Assembly: GCA_019637805.1 (NCBI GenBank)
Contig: JAHBVB010000001.1
Coordinates: 1,033,875 to 1,097,874, forward strand
Length of the DNA stretch: 64,000 nucleotides
Reading direction: 5' to 3'
DNA from: Anaerolineales bacterium
GTDB taxonomy: Bacteria; Chloroflexota; Anaerolineae; Anaerolineales; UBA11579
How positions within the stretch are numbered: position 1 is the stretch's first letter; every line of letters begins with the position of its first letter. Below are positions 58,252-63,623 of this stretch, piece by piece. The notes beneath the pieces were generated by a model. That model had not been told where the DNA came from, did not search any database, and saw only the letters and a program-made list of their open reading frames with translations. Made by a program: the position numbers and the translations under genes.

Positions 58252-58689
58252 ATGTCATACCAAAAGATCACCATTGTCGGAAACCTGGGTCGTGATCCCG
58301 AAATGCGCTACACCCCGGGCGGCCAGGCCGTCACCAATTTTTCGGTGGCCTCCAATCGCCAATACACCAGTTCCACCGGTGAAAAAGTGAAGGAAACCGT
58401 CTGGTTCCGCGTATCTGCCTGGGGTCGCCAGGCCGAAACCGTCAACCAGTTCCTTAAGACGGGCAGCCAGGTGCTGGTGGAGGGCCGCCTAACCCCGGAC
58501 AAAGCCAGCGGCGGACCGCGTATTTGGACTCGCCAGGACGGCACCCCGGCCTCTTCCTTCGAGATCACCGCCGAACGCGTGGTCTTCCTGGGTGGCCGCG
58601 GCGATGGCAGCGCCCCAGGCGGCGGACCGGACAATTACCAGTCCGCGCCGATGATGGATGACGGCTTTGAAGACGAAATCCCCTTCTAG
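58252..58689 (+). CDS. ssb: Single-stranded DNA-binding protein
   Basis: Binds ssDNA during replication and repair. The 145-residue protein has an OB fold (SYQKITIVGNLGRDPEMRYT, VWFRVSAWGRQAE, VLVEGRLTPD) and a short flexible tail ending DGFEDEIPF, the protein-interaction tip. It is shorter than many SSBs because the Gly/Gln linker is brief. It starts an operon that runs through DUF3467, translin-like, Cas4-like, nadK, B-box and recN genes. Confidence 0.96.
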   Translation: MSYQKITIVGNLGRDPEMRYTPGGQAVTNFSVASNRQYTSSTGEKVKETVWFRVSAWGRQAETVNQFLKTGSQVLVEGRLTPDKASGGPRIWTRQDGTPASSFEITAERVVFLGGRGDGSAPGGGPDNYQSAPMMDDGFEDEIPF

Positions 58690-58698
58690 GCGGTGAGC

Positions 58699-59064
58699 AT
58701 GCCTGATCCCAAGCCCAAACCGGAACAAGAAAAAGGGCCGGGCGTTCCCGGCGCCCTGCGCCCGCGGCTGGTGCCGCGGCCGGGCCTGGCGGGAGAAGCG
58801 GTGTATGCCAATGTGGTGCGCATCTCGCATGCGCCCTCTGAACTGGTTTTCGACTTCGCCCATTCTTTGCCCGGCGAGCTGGACGTGCCGATCAAGGCGC
58901 GGGTGGTGCTTTCGCCGCTCAGCGCCAAGTTACTGCAGCGCGCCCTGGCGGACAGCCTGGCCAAATATGAAACGGCCTTCGGCGTTGTAAATGTGCCGCA
59001 AGGAAAATCTTTGGCCGATGACTTGTTTCGCTCCCCAGAGACCCCGAAACCGGAGAGCGAATGA
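58699..59064 (+). CDS. DUF3467 protein
   Basis: A 121-residue protein with a Pro-rich N-terminus. Residues about 33-105 (EAVYANVVRISHAPSELVFDFAHSLPG, RVVLSPLSAKLLQRALADSLAKYE) match DUF3467, a small protein family of unknown function found in many bacteria and archaea. The ATG at 58699 is chosen; a GTG two codons upstream is an alternative. It overlaps the translin-like gene start by ATGA and lies 10 bp after ssb. Confidence 0.82.
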   Translation: MPDPKPKPEQEKGPGVPGALRPRLVPRPGLAGEAVYANVVRISHAPSELVFDFAHSLPGELDVPIKARVVLSPLSAKLLQRALADSLAKYETAFGVVNVPQGKSLADDLFRSPETPKPESE

Positions 59065-59702
59065 GCCGTTTGGACGAGATCACCAAATCGATCCATGCCA
59101 GCTTTGAGGCGCAGACCGCCGCGCGCGACGCGGCCCTGGCACAGACCCGCCAACTGACCCGGCATTGTGCCCACGCCATCCGCGCCATCCATCGCGATGA
59201 AGCCGCCACCGCCCAGACCGAGCTGGCAGCCGCCAGTCAGCTGGCCGCCCAGTTGCGCAATGGCCTGGCGGGCTTCCCCGACTTGTACTTTGCCGGCTAT
59301 ACACAGGATGCGCTCAAAGAGTTTGCCGAAGCGGTGATTGTGGATGCCCTGGTGGCTGGCAAAGAACTGCCTTCTCCCGGAGAGCTGCAGGTGGAGCCGG
59401 CCACCTACATGCAGGGCCTGGCGGAAGCCGCCGGAGAACTGCGCCGCCGCTGCCTGGACATCCTGCGCCACGGCCATTCAGATGAAGCTGAACGGCTGCT
59501 GGAGCAGATGGACGACATCTACGCTGCCTTGGTCACCATGGATTATCCTGACGCGGTCACGCGCGGCCTGCGGCGCCTGACGGACATCTGCCGCAGCCTG
59601 GTGGAACGCACCCGCGGCGATATGACCATCAGCCTGCGCCAGCAGGGCTTGGAGGCCAGCTTGCGCAGGCTGGAGGAGCGCCTGGGGGGCGAAGCTTCGT
59701 AA
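59061..59702 (+). CDS. Translin/TRAX-family protein
   Basis: A 213-residue all-helical protein of the translin superfamily, which in eukaryotes binds ssDNA/RNA and, as TRAX, cleaves RNA. The pattern ALKEFAEAVIVDALV matches the TRAX metal-site helix (Glu87, Glu90), and YMQGLAEAAGELRR gives Glu122 and Glu126 where TRAX has Asp and Glu. The C-terminus has DYPDAVTRGLRRLTDICRSLVERTRGDMTISL, diagnostic of the family. It lies in the ssb-recN operon, just before the Cas4-like genes. An RNA- or DNA-end role is inferred. Confidence 0.85.
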   Translation: MSRLDEITKSIHASFEAQTAARDAALAQTRQLTRHCAHAIRAIHRDEAATAQTELAAASQLAAQLRNGLAGFPDLYFAGYTQDALKEFAEAVIVDALVAGKELPSPGELQVEPATYMQGLAEAAGELRRRCLDILRHGHSDEAERLLEQMDDIYAALVTMDYPDAVTRGLRRLTDICRSLVERTRGDMTISLRQQGLEASLRRLEERLGGEAS

Positions 59703-59704
59703 GC

Positions 59705-59941
59705 ATGCAGCGCCAGTGGATCAAAGCCTCGGAGATCGGCGAATACTTGTACTGCCGGCGCGCCTGGTGGTTCCGCCAGCAGGGGCAAGCCAGCGCCAAC
59801 CAGGCAGCCTTGCAAGCCGGCGGCCAGGCCCATGCGGCCCACGGCCGCAGCCTGCGCCTGACCGGCTGGTTGCGCTGGTTGGCCCTCGCGCTGGCGTTGC
59901 TGGCCCTGGGCTTGCTTTGGGCGCAGTGGGGTACGCCGTGA
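59705..59941 (+). CDS. Cas4-like protein, N-terminal part with first Fe-S cysteine and membrane helix
   Basis: A 78-residue protein. Residues 6-22 (IKASEIGEYLYCRRAWW) match the N-terminal segment of Cas4/RecB-like nucleases, where Cys17 is the first ligand of the Fe-S cluster. A helix at about 54-74 follows (RWLALALALLALGLLWAQW). The gene ends in the TGA of a GTGA overlap with the next gene, which carries the nuclease domain and the three other cysteines. It is either one half of a split enzyme or a frameshifted gene. Confidence 0.75.
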   Translation: MQRQWIKASEIGEYLYCRRAWWFRQQGQASANQAALQAGGQAHAAHGRSLRLTGWLRWLALALALLALGLLWAQWGTP

Positions 59942-60456
59942 ACCCAGCCGTTTTCGCTTTGTTGTTGCTGCTGGCGGCCGGTCTGCTCTTTTGGTGGGCC
60001 AGCCGCCAGCAGCGTCGCCTGGGCCTGCCCAGCGGCCGCCTGCTTTATGAAGACAGCGGCGCGCAGGAGCAGCTGCAAGACGTGCTCCTGGCCGAGGACC
60101 TGGGCTTGCTGGGCCGGCCGGATTACCTGGTGCAGGCCAAGGAAGGTTTGGTGCCGGTTGAGGTCAAGAGCGGGCGCACCCCTCAGCGACCGTTCGAGAC
60201 GCACATCCTGCAGCTGGCCGCCTACTGCGCGCTGGTGCAGCGCAACTACAACCAGCGCCCGCCCTATGGCATCATCCGTTACCCGGAGCGCAGCTTCAAC
60301 GTGCCTTTCACGACAGAGTTGGAGGCTCGTTTAATCGCCGTGCTGAGTGAAATGCACACCGCCCTGGCGACAGGGGTGGAGCAACACCGTTCCCATACCA
60401 TGGCGGCGCGCTGCCGGGCCTGCGGTTACCGAGACGTGTGCGTAGAACAGCTCTAG
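59938..60456 (+). CDS. Cas4-like membrane-anchored nuclease, catalytic part
   Basis: A 172-residue protein starting with a helix (about 4-20, VFALLLLLAAGLLFWW). The PD-(D/E)XK nuclease core is complete: Asp62 in GRPDYLVQAKEG, Glu75 and Lys77 in LVPVEVKSGR, and the QxxxY motif at Gln92-Tyr96 (LQLAAYCALV). The C-terminus has three cysteines, Cys159, Cys162 and Cys168 (CRACGYRDVC), as in Cas4, but the fourth ligand is on the preceding small protein. The GTG start at 59938 overlaps its TGA. No CRISPR or cas genes are near, so the role is probably DNA repair. Confidence 0.8.
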   Translation: MNPAVFALLLLLAAGLLFWWASRQQRRLGLPSGRLLYEDSGAQEQLQDVLLAEDLGLLGRPDYLVQAKEGLVPVEVKSGRTPQRPFETHILQLAAYCALVQRNYNQRPPYGIIRYPERSFNVPFTTELEARLIAVLSEMHTALATGVEQHRSHTMAARCRACGYRDVCVEQL

Positions 60457-60473
60457 ACACGGACGCAAACGGT

Positions 60474-60479
60474 TAAGAT
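60474..60479 (+). promoter_or_regulatory. Possible internal -10 box for nadK
   Basis: TAAGAT is followed after 7 bases by the nadK ATG, and no Shine-Dalgarno is present. This suggests an internal leaderless promoter in the ssb-recN operon. The -35 region is not recognisable. Confidence 0.35.
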
Positions 60480-60486
60480 AGTCGCC

Positions 60487-61377
60487 ATGCCCAATCCCGC
60501 CCGCTCTCCGCAGTTTCAGCATGCCGCGGTACTCTCGCGCAGTTTGGAAGGGGAGCCGATGGCGCAAACCTTGCAGGTGGCCGCCTTTCTTGGGGAACTG
60601 GGTTTGCAGGCTACTCCTCTGTATATGCATGCCGTGGAAGTGCCGGAACGCGTGGCTGCTGGCGAATTCGATCTGATTATTGCTCTGGGCGGCGACGGCA
60701 CCATGCTGCGCGCCGGCCATTTTTGCGCCCCAGCAGGCATCCCGCTGTTAGGCATCAATGAAGGCAACTTTGGCTTCCTGATCGAACTGGAGCGGCACAC
60801 CTGGCGCGAGATGCTGCCGCGCTTGCTCAGCGGCGAATATCGCCTCGAAAAACGCATGTTGATTCATGCCGAGCTGTGGCGGGAAGGCAAGCAGATCGGC
60901 GCCTGGGAGGCGCTGAACGAAGCCATGATCGGCCGCGGCCGCCTGGCGCGGCCGGTGCACCTGGCCGCCAGCCTGGACGGCCAGCCGCTGACCACCTACG
61001 TGGCTGATGGGCTGATCATCGCCACCGCCACCGGCTCCACGGCCTACGCCCTGGCCGCCGGCGGCCCGGTACTGCCGCCTGAGCTGCGAAATATGGTGCT
61101 GGTGCCTGTGGCCGCCCACCTCAGCATGGAACGCGCCATTGTGCTGGCTGAAGGGTCGGTCATTCGCGTGGAGATGAAGCGCGGCGTGGAGCCGGTGCTG
61201 ACCATCGACGGCCAGCAGCCGATCGAGGTGCAGCTGGGCGACTGGGTAGAACTGCGCGCCAGCTCGCACAGCCTTAATTTCCTGCGTTTCAAAGACCCCG
61301 GCGACTTTTACGCCCGCCTCTTGCATATTATGGACAACAATCCGGCCGCCCAGGCAACTGACACGGAGACGCGATGA
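60487..61377 (+). CDS. nadK: NAD kinase
   Basis: Phosphorylates NAD to NADP. The 296-residue protein has the GGDGT motif (residues 68-72, IALGGDGTMLRAG), the Asn-Glu pair in GINEGNFGFL and the ATATGSTAYALAAGGP motif. The order nadK-(small gene)-recN is common in bacteria. The ATG has no ribosome-binding site and lies 30 bp after the Cas4-like gene. It overlaps the next gene by ATGA. Confidence 0.95.
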   Translation: MPNPARSPQFQHAAVLSRSLEGEPMAQTLQVAAFLGELGLQATPLYMHAVEVPERVAAGEFDLIIALGGDGTMLRAGHFCAPAGIPLLGINEGNFGFLIELERHTWREMLPRLLSGEYRLEKRMLIHAELWREGKQIGAWEALNEAMIGRGRLARPVHLAASLDGQPLTTYVADGLIIATATGSTAYALAAGGPVLPPELRNMVLVPVAAHLSMERAIVLAEGSVIRVEMKRGVEPVLTIDGQQPIEVQLGDWVELRASSHSLNFLRFKDPGDFYARLLHIMDNNPAAQATDTETR

Positions 61378-61892
61378 GCACTGCCACCTATTGCGCCAAC
61401 CATCCTGACCGGGAGACCGGCCTGCGTTGCAACAACTGTGACAAATACATTTGCATACAATGTGCGGTACACACGCCCACGGGCTACCGCTGCAAGGAAT
61501 GTGTGCGCGGCCAAAGCAAAGTCTTTGAGACCGCCCGACCCCTGGATTTCGTGCTGGGTTTTGGTGTGGCTTTGGTACTTTCATTTATTGCCGGTCTAAT
61601 CGCCAGCCGGATTGGCTTTTTCATCATCCTGCTGGCGCCCGCGGCGGGTTCCATCATCGCCGAGGTCGTGCGCGCCATCACCGGCCGGCGGCGCTCACTG
61701 CGCTTGTTTCGCCTGGTGGCGATTGCCGTGGCTTTGGGCGGCCTGTGGTTTGTGTTGCCCGTGGGGTTTTCCATCCTGGCGGGCGGCGGGCTGATGAATT
61801 TGATGGCCCTGCTGTGGCCGGTTCTCTACACTGTGTTGGCCACCTCCTCGGCTTACTACCGCCTGTCAGGCATTCAAATTGGGGGGCGCTAG
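61374..61892 (+). CDS. B-box zinc-finger membrane protein
   Basis: A 172-residue protein. The N-terminal 45 residues are a B-box-type zinc finger with His and Cys ligands (YCANHPDRETGLRC, CDKYICIQCAVHTP, GYRCKECVRGQ). Three or four hydrophobic helices follow (about 57-80, 82-95, 105-125, 130-160). Such bacterial B-box membrane proteins are often grouped with rhomboid-like proteins, but no protease motif is visible. Function unknown; it is translationally coupled to nadK. Confidence 0.82.
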   Translation: MSTATYCANHPDRETGLRCNNCDKYICIQCAVHTPTGYRCKECVRGQSKVFETARPLDFVLGFGVALVLSFIAGLIASRIGFFIILLAPAAGSIIAEVVRAITGRRRSLRLFRLVAIAVALGGLWFVLPVGFSILAGGGLMNLMALLWPVLYTVLATSSAYYRLSGIQIGGR

Positions 61893-61895
61893 CCC

Positions 61896-63623
61896 ATGCT
61901 CACCGAGCTGCGCATTCACAATATCGCCATTATCGAGGACCTGACCCTGGAATGGGGTCCGGGCCTGATCATGCTCAGCGGTGAGACCGGCGCGGGCAAA
62001 TCCATTGTGCTGGACGCGGTGGAAACCCTGCTGGGGGTGCGCGCCGACACCAACTTGATCCGCGCCGGTGAAGACCGTGCCAGCGTGGAGGGCACCTTTA
62101 AGATCCCGGAGGCGCTCAAAGGCCAGATCCATGCCATTTTGCAGCGTGAAGAGCTGCTGGACGACCCGGACTACCTCAGCATCCAACGCGAGTTTCGCCG
62201 CGAGGGCCGCAATCTGGCGCGCGTCAACGGCCGCCCGGCCACGGTGGCTTTGGTCAAAGAATTGGGCGAACTGTTGATCGACCTGCACGGCCAGTCGGAG
62301 CACCTCTCTCTGCTGCGCGTACCTGCCCACCGCGGCCTGCTGGATCGCTATGCAGGCGTAGAGCGCGAGCTGGCCGCCTACCAAAGCGTCTATGCCAGCT
62401 TGCAGGATGTACGCCGTGAGCTGGGCAACCTGCGCGAGGCGGAAGCGGATGCTGCCCGGCGGATTGAGCTGCTCAGCTTCCAGGTGCAGGAGATTGATGC
62501 CGCCCGCTTGCAGGTGGACGAAGAACAGTCCTTAAAGGAAGAACGCACCCGCCTGGCCAATGCCGAAGCGCTGGCGGCCAACGCCAATCAGGCGCTGGCC
62601 GCGCTGGATGAAGGCGAGGGCGAGGCGCCCTCCGCAAATGATCGCCTGGGCGCCGCCCAGGGCGCCCTGGCCCAGCTGGCCAAAGTGGACCCCTCGCGGG
62701 CCGAGCTGCACACCCGGGCGGAGGGCTTGTTCGACGAACTGAGTGAGCTGACCCGTGATCTGCGTGACTATCTGGAACAGATCGAGTTCAACCCGCGCAG
62801 ACTGGAAGAGGTGGAAGAGCGCCTGGGCCTCCTGCAGAACCTCAAGCGCAAATACGGTGAGGACATCCCCGCCATCCTGGCGTTCGCCGAGCGCGCCCGC
62901 AAGGACCTGGACAATATTTCCAACGCCGAAGAGCGCCTGGCGCAGTTGGAGGCTCAGGAAGCTGAGCTGCTGCTGCAGCTGGCTGCCGCGGCGGCGGCGC
63001 TCTCCGCCAAGCGCCATGCGGCTGCCAAGACGCTCAGTGAAGCTGTGGAAGTCGAGTTGGACGACCTGAAGATGGAAGCCGCCCGCTTCGGCGTGGACTT
63101 TGCCCACCGTGAAGACCCCGCCGGGTTGCCGTTGGATGGCAAGCATTATGCTTTCGACCCATACGGCCATGAAACTGCGGAATTCATGGTGGCCCCCAAC
63201 CCCGGGGAAGGCCTCAAGCCCCTGGTCAAGGTGGCCTCTGGCGGCGAAACCGCCCGGCTGATGTTGGCGCTCAAGAACGTGCTGGCCCGCGCCGACCAAA
63301 CGCCCACCCTGATCTTTGATGAGATCGACCAGGGCATTGGCGGCCGCGTGGGCAGTGTGGTCGGCGAGAAGCTGTGGCGTCTGGCGCGCCAGCACCAGGT
63401 GCTGTGCGTCACGCATCTGCCGCAGCTGGCCGCCTACGGCGACCAGCATTTCAAAGTGGAGAAGGTCGTCCAGGGCGGTCGCACCAGCACCCAGGTGAGC
63501 TTGCTGCAAGGCGAGCCGCGCGTGGTGGAGCTGGCCCATATGCTGGGGGAAGTCAGCGAAGGGACTTTGCAGTCCGCCCTGGAGATTTTGGATACGGTCC
63601 ACAGCACCACAGTTTCAGGCTAG
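61896..63623 (+). CDS. recN: DNA repair protein RecN
   Basis: An SMC-like ATPase that tethers DNA ends in double-strand-break repair, 575 residues. The N-terminal Walker A is LSGETGAGKSIVLDAV (about 28-43). The long coiled coil spans about 150-380. The C-terminal signature ASGGETARLMLALK is followed by Walker B TLIFDEIDQGIGGRVGSVVG and VTHLPQLAAYGD. It begins 3 bp after the B-box gene. No LexA box was seen near the operon. Confidence 0.95.
   Translation: MLTELRIHNIAIIEDLTLEWGPGLIMLSGETGAGKSIVLDAVETLLGVRADTNLIRAGEDRASVEGTFKIPEALKGQIHAILQREELLDDPDYLSIQREFRREGRNLARVNGRPATVALVKELGELLIDLHGQSEHLSLLRVPAHRGLLDRYAGVERELAAYQSVYASLQDVRRELGNLREAEADAARRIELLSFQVQEIDAARLQVDEEQSLKEERTRLANAEALAANANQALAALDEGEGEAPSANDRLGAAQGALAQLAKVDPSRAELHTRAEGLFDELSELTRDLRDYLEQIEFNPRRLEEVEERLGLLQNLKRKYGEDIPAILAFAERARKDLDNISNAEERLAQLEAQEAELLLQLAAAAAALSAKRHAAAKTLSEAVEVELDDLKMEAARFGVDFAHREDPAGLPLDGKHYAFDPYGHETAEFMVAPNPGEGLKPLVKVASGGETARLMLALKNVLARADQTPTLIFDEIDQGIGGRVGSVVGEKLWRLARQHQVLCVTHLPQLAAYGDQHFKVEKVVQGGRTSTQVSLLQGEPRVVELAHMLGEVSEGTLQSALEILDTVHSTTVSG

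Follow-up and report, generated by a model that had tools for sequence, protein, structure and literature searches.

A Cas4-like nuclease of Chloroflexota probably built from two membrane-tethered halves encoded by separate genes

According to the main text of PMC5704561, all Cas4 proteins carry four cysteines and solo-Cas4 is monophyletic in many Chloroflexi; the same text does not speak of split Cas4 proteins or of transmembrane segments. The histidine of RecB motif I corresponds to His62 in SSO0001 and to His94 in Pcal_0546; in SSO0001, it coordinates the catalytic metal together with Asp99 and Glu113, and the H80A mutant of SSO1391 is inactive (PMC4176176). The literature we searched, to which most subscription papers did not belong, yielded no description of a split or membrane-anchored Cas4.

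Here, we analyzed a 64,000-nucleotide stretch of the genome of an Anaerolineales bacterium (hereafter, the window; assembly GCA_019637805.1, contig JAHBVB010000001.1, positions 1,033,875 to 1,097,874), in which two overlapping genes very probably encode complementary N- and C-terminal portions of a single Cas4/RecB-type nuclease, a heterodimer tethered to the membrane and oriented towards the cytoplasm. The relevant features are as follows:

59061..59702, + strand: translin-family-like gene, often found upstream of ORF1 in the class; Pfam Translin barely above cut-off
59705..59941, + strand: ORF1, proposed small subunit (78 aa, ATG start), N-terminal Cas4 segment plus one transmembrane (TM) helix
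59753..59755, + strand: codon of Cys17, putative lone N-terminal Fe-S cysteine, present in 213/214 aligned ORF1s (the remaining one is gapped there)
59819..59833, + strand: G39xxxH43, RecB motif I with a putative metal-site His; His46 is invariant, too, in ORF1 profile A1
59870..59926, + strand: TM helix of ORF1 (approximate), predicted N-in/C-out from its flanking charges (positive-inside rule)
59938..59941, + strand: GTGA stop-start overlap of ORF1 and ORF2, without a canonical slippery heptamer; ATGA in the relative L121
59938..60456, + strand: ORF2, proposed large subunit (172 aa, GTG start), one N-terminal TM helix, PD-(D/E)XK core and three cysteines
59947..60003, + strand: TM helix of ORF2 (approximate), predicted N-out/C-in
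60121..60123, + strand: Asp62, motif II, in 216/220 aligned ORF2s
60160..60168, + strand: Glu75-x-Lys77, motif III, Glu in 217/220 and Lys in 219/220 aligned ORF2s
60211..60225, + strand: Gln92xxxTyr96, QhxxY motif, Gln in 219/220 and Tyr in 212/220 aligned ORF2s
60412..60441, + strand: Cys159, Cys162 and Cys168, three putative C-terminal Fe-S cysteines, in 217-218/220 ORF2s (the remainder mostly gaps)

ORF1 begins MQRQWIKASEIGEYLYC17RRAWW and continues through G39GQAH43AAH46 into a hydrophobic helix; ORF2 opens with a hydrophobic helix, followed by D62, E75-x-K77, Q92xxxY96 and C159xxC162xxxxxC168. Both genes are thus as a first-pass annotation had read them, namely an N-terminal Cas4 segment with Cys17 and one helix, and a second gene starting at an overlapping GTGA with one helix, the nuclease residues and three C-terminal cysteines. 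Pfam Cas_Cas4 (PF01930) recognized ORF2 over profile positions 33-159 (42.8 bits vs a cut-off of 22.7) and ORF1 below cut-off over positions 3-40 (13.6 bits). With the NCBIfam model TIGR00372, ORF2 scored 70.7 bits (cut-off 65; positions 53-179) and ORF1 18.3 bits (positions 2-44), which is below cut-off when taken alone; together, the two ORFs tile consecutive parts of this single Cas4 profile. The best PDB match shared by the separate profiles of both halves was Cas4 8d3l, whose chain residues 12-48 were matched weakly by the ORF1 profile (E 0.15) and residues 103-201 by the ORF2 profile (E 1.1e-6), even though a phmmer search of the PDB with the ORF2 sequence alone gave no match. Each ORF is under purifying selection in its own frame, with dN/dS values against the relatives L121 and L122 of 0.145 and 0.25 for ORF1, and of 0.10 and 0.18 for ORF2.

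The complete set of RecB motifs, i.e. I (GxxxH), II (D), III (ExK) and QhxxY, is present and nearly invariant, motif I being encoded by ORF1 and the remaining three by ORF2. In 30 ORF1s, the invariant positions were the Cys, a Trp and all three specified residues of GxxxHxxH. Alignment of the ORF1 profile to 8d3l would make the ORF1 His the equivalent of His62 in SSO0001. Since ORF1 carries motif I, the split appears to divide the active site as well as the cluster, with one metal-site residue and one cysteine probably contributed by ORF1 and the remaining ones by ORF2. The first-pass annotation had correctly placed the Fe-S cysteines on two chains, one on ORF1 and three on ORF2, in agreement with the four cysteines of the Cas4 family, but had overlooked the division of the catalytic site. 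Characterized Cas4 members are single polypeptides, whereas among the loci examined with both halves all but three have two genes, and we therefore refer to a split variant rather than to an ordinary Cas4.

The two halves are retained together. Across 396 genomes of the class (calls at E<1e-10 for ORF2 and E<1e-5 for ORF1), profile A1 matched in 264, and 255 genomes held both halves, six ORF2 only, nine ORF1 only and 126 neither (phi 0.915; Fisher p = 1e-83, a statistic that ignores phylogeny). Outside the class, an ORF1 match was also present in 58 of 65 selected genomes of the phylum with ORF2. Re-searching the 15 exceptions for the missing half, with nearly every candidate scored, failed to find it; the sole traces were a weak G166 match at 8e-8 and a G354 fragment. 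Many of the 15 are incomplete, but fairly complete genomes among them include G316 (99%) without ORF2 and G284 (96%) without ORF1. In families f3, f40, f41, f42 and f46, genera without either half exist alongside genera with the two, which suggests repeated joint loss or gain, as judged from a listing rather than a tree. Distance matrices of the halves correlated to a similar degree whether the genes were linked (0.60) or unlinked (0.64), yet we set this correlation aside because a shared species tree yields the same.

Three natural fusions, L246 (353 aa), L251 (379 aa) and L256 (330 aa), join the halves in a single frame in the order ORF1, helix, short turn, helix, ORF2. All belong to family f77, which is probably Ktedonobacter-like (f72, f82 and f108 are probably Chloroflexia-like). 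The fusions therefore identify the halves as one architecture and the split point as the turn of a helix hairpin, precisely where the split had been proposed to fall. At several f77 loci, L231-L237 among them, ORF1 measures ~150 aa and an insertion separates its Cys motif from GxxxH.

Residues on the two chains also decay together. Among 196 loci with both halves, 181 have an intact D/E/K triad and GxxxH, two an intact triad without GxxxH, 11 a changed triad without GxxxH, and two a changed triad with GxxxH; put differently, GxxxH is gone from ORF1 in 11 of the 13 loci where D/E residues of ORF2 are lost. Like those for co-occurrence, these are raw counts of loci or genomes, uncorrected for phylogeny, and the independent decay events are few, since the 11 loci include the three fusions and sit in few lineages (mainly f77 and f69). 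As for the discordant loci, two each way (L261 and L240; L244 and L172), the change in L240 is a conservative D to E, and the ORF1 of L172 seems to have been misread. Taken most simply, the pattern means that the ORF1 His and the ORF2 D/E residues serve one site. The cysteines are kept in nearly all of the 11 doubly decayed loci, and the decayed copies are probably dead nucleases with a retained scaffold. Catalytic residues changed with Fe-S cysteines kept were seen in L235, L242, L246, L247, L251-L254, L256, L258, L259 and L270.

In about two dozen relatives, ORF1 and ORF2 lie in the same frame with a single stop between them, and reading that stop as Gly provided paired alignment rows (A3) from natural loci. 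AlphaFold modeling of the corresponding read-through chain of L010 (stop replaced by Gly) gave a pLDDT of 93.8 and a pTM of 0.89, with a long helix (36-83) predicted to connect motif I with the membrane and a return helix (89-113). VIA-align superimposed the model on 7mi4 with a Z of 20.9 (2.7 A, 183 residues of model 2-257), followed by 8d3l (18.8), AdnAB (14.2), EXO5 (13.7), SSO0001 (13.5) and Dna2 (11.7); among Cas4 structures, the Z was 13.5 for 4ic1 and 10.7 for 4r5q. The joined pair is thus confidently predicted to adopt a Cas4 fold, though a read-through chain with Gly for the stop, modeled from paired rows, shows compatibility of the halves and not their association. The 15 residues preceding the ORF1 helix hold a mean of 3.1 K+R and those following it 0.5; for the ORF2 helix the order is reversed, with 0.4 ahead of the helix and 3.3 behind it. 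By this charge distribution, both soluble parts should be cytoplasmic.

We propose that each part is held in the membrane by its one helix and that the two helices would pair as the hairpin seen in the fusions; a cut at the extracytoplasmic turn would leave both soluble parts in the cytoplasm, able to assemble. As motifs and cysteines are divided between ORF1 and ORF2, neither chain alone would suffice for the metal site or the Fe-S 'staple', both of which would need the heterodimer. The first of the two options put forward in the first-pass annotation, that two membrane-anchored halves assemble one nuclease and one cluster, draws strong support from the two genes found phylum-wide and often unlinked, their co-retention, the fusions, the correlated decay and the predicted fold, all computed here, as were conservation and charge topology; the chains would accordingly be expected to associate, bind a cluster and cut DNA. 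We consider it rather unlikely, though worth raising, that the pair is an obligate two-gene nuclease in which helix pairing (or cluster loss) serves as an on/off switch at the cytoplasmic face, with the nuclease dead and only a cluster-bearing scaffold remaining in some lineages.

ORF1 might instead be a partner or regulator with a function of its own, and ORF2 catalytically complete, perhaps as a homodimer. Indeed, ORF2 passes the Cas4 cut-off without ORF1, and Pcal_0546 remains active when cysteine mutations abolish its cluster (PMC4176176), so that the ORF1 cysteine need not be essential. Such self-sufficiency is nonetheless improbable: the His of motif I, a metal ligand in SSO0001, lies on ORF1, and the ORF1 GxxxH decays jointly with the ORF2 D/E residues; the fusions place ORF1 exactly at its Cas4 position, and the joined pair is predicted as a single confident Cas4 fold.

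Given that the ORF2 family is annotated as cas4, the pair could also represent the Cas4 of a CRISPR adaptation module. This is very improbable, as we found no Cas1 in the window's genome, and across 150 class genomes Cas1 and the split Cas4 were not associated (65/41 vs 25/19, p 0.71). Moreover, the neighbors are of another kind, the gene order in window 58252-63623 being SSB, DUF3467, translin-like, ORF1, ORF2, NAD kinase, zf-B_box/membrane protein and RecN. The SSB-to-RecN order is frequent in Anaerolineae, with each member recurring in 28-40 of 80 Chloroflexota loci; outside Anaerolineae, the neighbors of ORF1 and ORF2 vary between groups, so the context says little on function. The translin-like family occurs in 136/150 class genomes, which renders its co-occurrence uninformative. 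Even at some loci with unlinked ORF1 and ORF2, its gene is still next to ORF1, and the product of window 59061-59702 is named 'haloacid dehalogenase superfamily' by NCBIfam PRK14562 models.

Other associations were tried and rejected. A search of viral contigs confirmed no relative that would speak for a phage origin, a plasmid search returned only four remote Cas4/PD-(D/E)XK matches, and ComEC, considered for a link to competence, is present in 137/150 genomes and too common to inform. Three fairly complete genomes of genus g52 (G038, G070 and G136) lack ComEC and the translin-like gene, and in G038 and G070 ORF1 is missing as well, as is any clear ORF2; this genus is possibly reduced or misplaced. 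The split nuclease was found in about three quarters of good class genomes (172/234), which suggests a housekeeping role. From family and context, our tentative guess is a membrane-tethered nuclease that acts on single strands or DNA ends, trimming the ends or degrading DNA at the inner membrane face, outside CRISPR adaptation, an assignment weaker than that of the heterodimer.

In the window, ORF2 overlaps ORF1 and lies in the -1 frame relative to it, and single-chain fusions occur elsewhere, as would suit the second option of the first-pass annotation, a programmed -1 frameshift that fuses both ORFs into one hairpin-anchored nuclease. The relatives leave this option an exceedingly slim chance. 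Among 199 linked split loci (from two collections, with some genomes counted twice), 65 overlap (47 by NTGA), 83 are within 60 nt, 33 within 300 nt and 18 farther apart; the gap spans -28 to +1402 nt, and all three frame relations occur (94/56/49). The N-terminal piece is a separate ORF wherever it was detected nearby (90 loci of the class), and about a dozen loci have a whole gene between the halves. The intervening gene is mostly an L,D-transpeptidase (YkuD; L061, L064-L066, L073, L074, L076, L084, L089) and in one locus NADPH-FMN reductase-like. In several single-contig genomes, the halves are about 390-710 kb apart. Positions of unlinked halves on single contigs are 3,641,360 and 3,206,954 in G228; 85,761 and 472,566 in G236; 5,163,582 and 4,454,267 in G384; 2,366,037 and 2,776,787 in G300; and 3,051,906 and 244,724 in G010; the halves are unlinked in G648, too.

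The orthologue comparison suggested at the outset thus returned two genes phylum-wide and a single uninterrupted gene in the three fusions only. The accompanying check for a slippery site or a conserved GTGA found no slippery heptamer upstream of the ORF1 stop in the window sequence; the overlap recurs as ATGA in L121 and as NTGA in 47 of the 65 overlaps. L121, an independent MAG at 93% identity, has the same two genes, as does L122 (81% identity), whose junction differs from both the window and L121. That a sequencing error or a recent pseudogene broke one gene, for which only the adjacency of the ORFs and a possible assembly indel speak, deserves practically no credence, as the split recurs in L121, L122 and phylum-wide and dN/dS is 0.10-0.25 across both frames. 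Frameshift and error models fail, in sum, because the genes are separate or unlinked and under purifying selection, the junctions in L121 and L122 differ, and there is no heptamer.

Fe-S clusters bridging two subunits occur in other enzymes. Unexpected here is that so small a nuclease domain is divided within its active site and encoded, phylum-wide, by separate or even unlinked genes. The 'Cas4' annotation of ORF2 in Chloroflexota would then cover half an enzyme, and ORF2 expressed without ORF1 may fail. Can two membrane proteins between them build one Fe-S cluster and one metal site, why did the fission of the hairpin persist, and what is the job of a membrane-bound Cas4-type nuclease outside CRISPR?

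ORF2 may be the solo-Cas4 protein meant in the main text of PMC5704561. Like Cas4 and solo-Cas4 proteins (SSO0001, Pcal_0546), the pair has all RecB motifs, one N-terminal and three C-terminal cysteines, and the predicted fold; unlike them, it comprises two polypeptides from two genes, with a predicted membrane hairpin in mid-domain and no tie to Cas1. The 'iron staple' nucleases AddAB, AdnAB, Dna2 and EXO5 are likewise RecB-type, with one distant N-terminal and three C-terminal cysteines and matching folds, but their nuclease domains are soluble, single and unsplit, and those of AddAB, AdnAB and Dna2 reside within large helicase proteins, whereas ORF1 and ORF2 come without a helicase. The TTV1 nucleocapsid protein TP1, described in PMC5704561 and PMC4625639 as an inactivated Cas4, resembles the Ktedonobacter-like copies in apparently having kept the Cas4 fold and lost catalysis, yet is a single-chain viral structural protein. 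Comparable in its genetic layout is split cox2 (COXIIA/COXIIB), whose complementary genes are parted by other ORFs and whose products are thought to be heterodimeric (PMC5374615). There, too, a membrane protein is divided into complementary genes, but that protein is a mitochondrial respiratory subunit, whereas here the split is of a bacterial nuclease, phylum-wide, and would divide both a metal site and a cluster.
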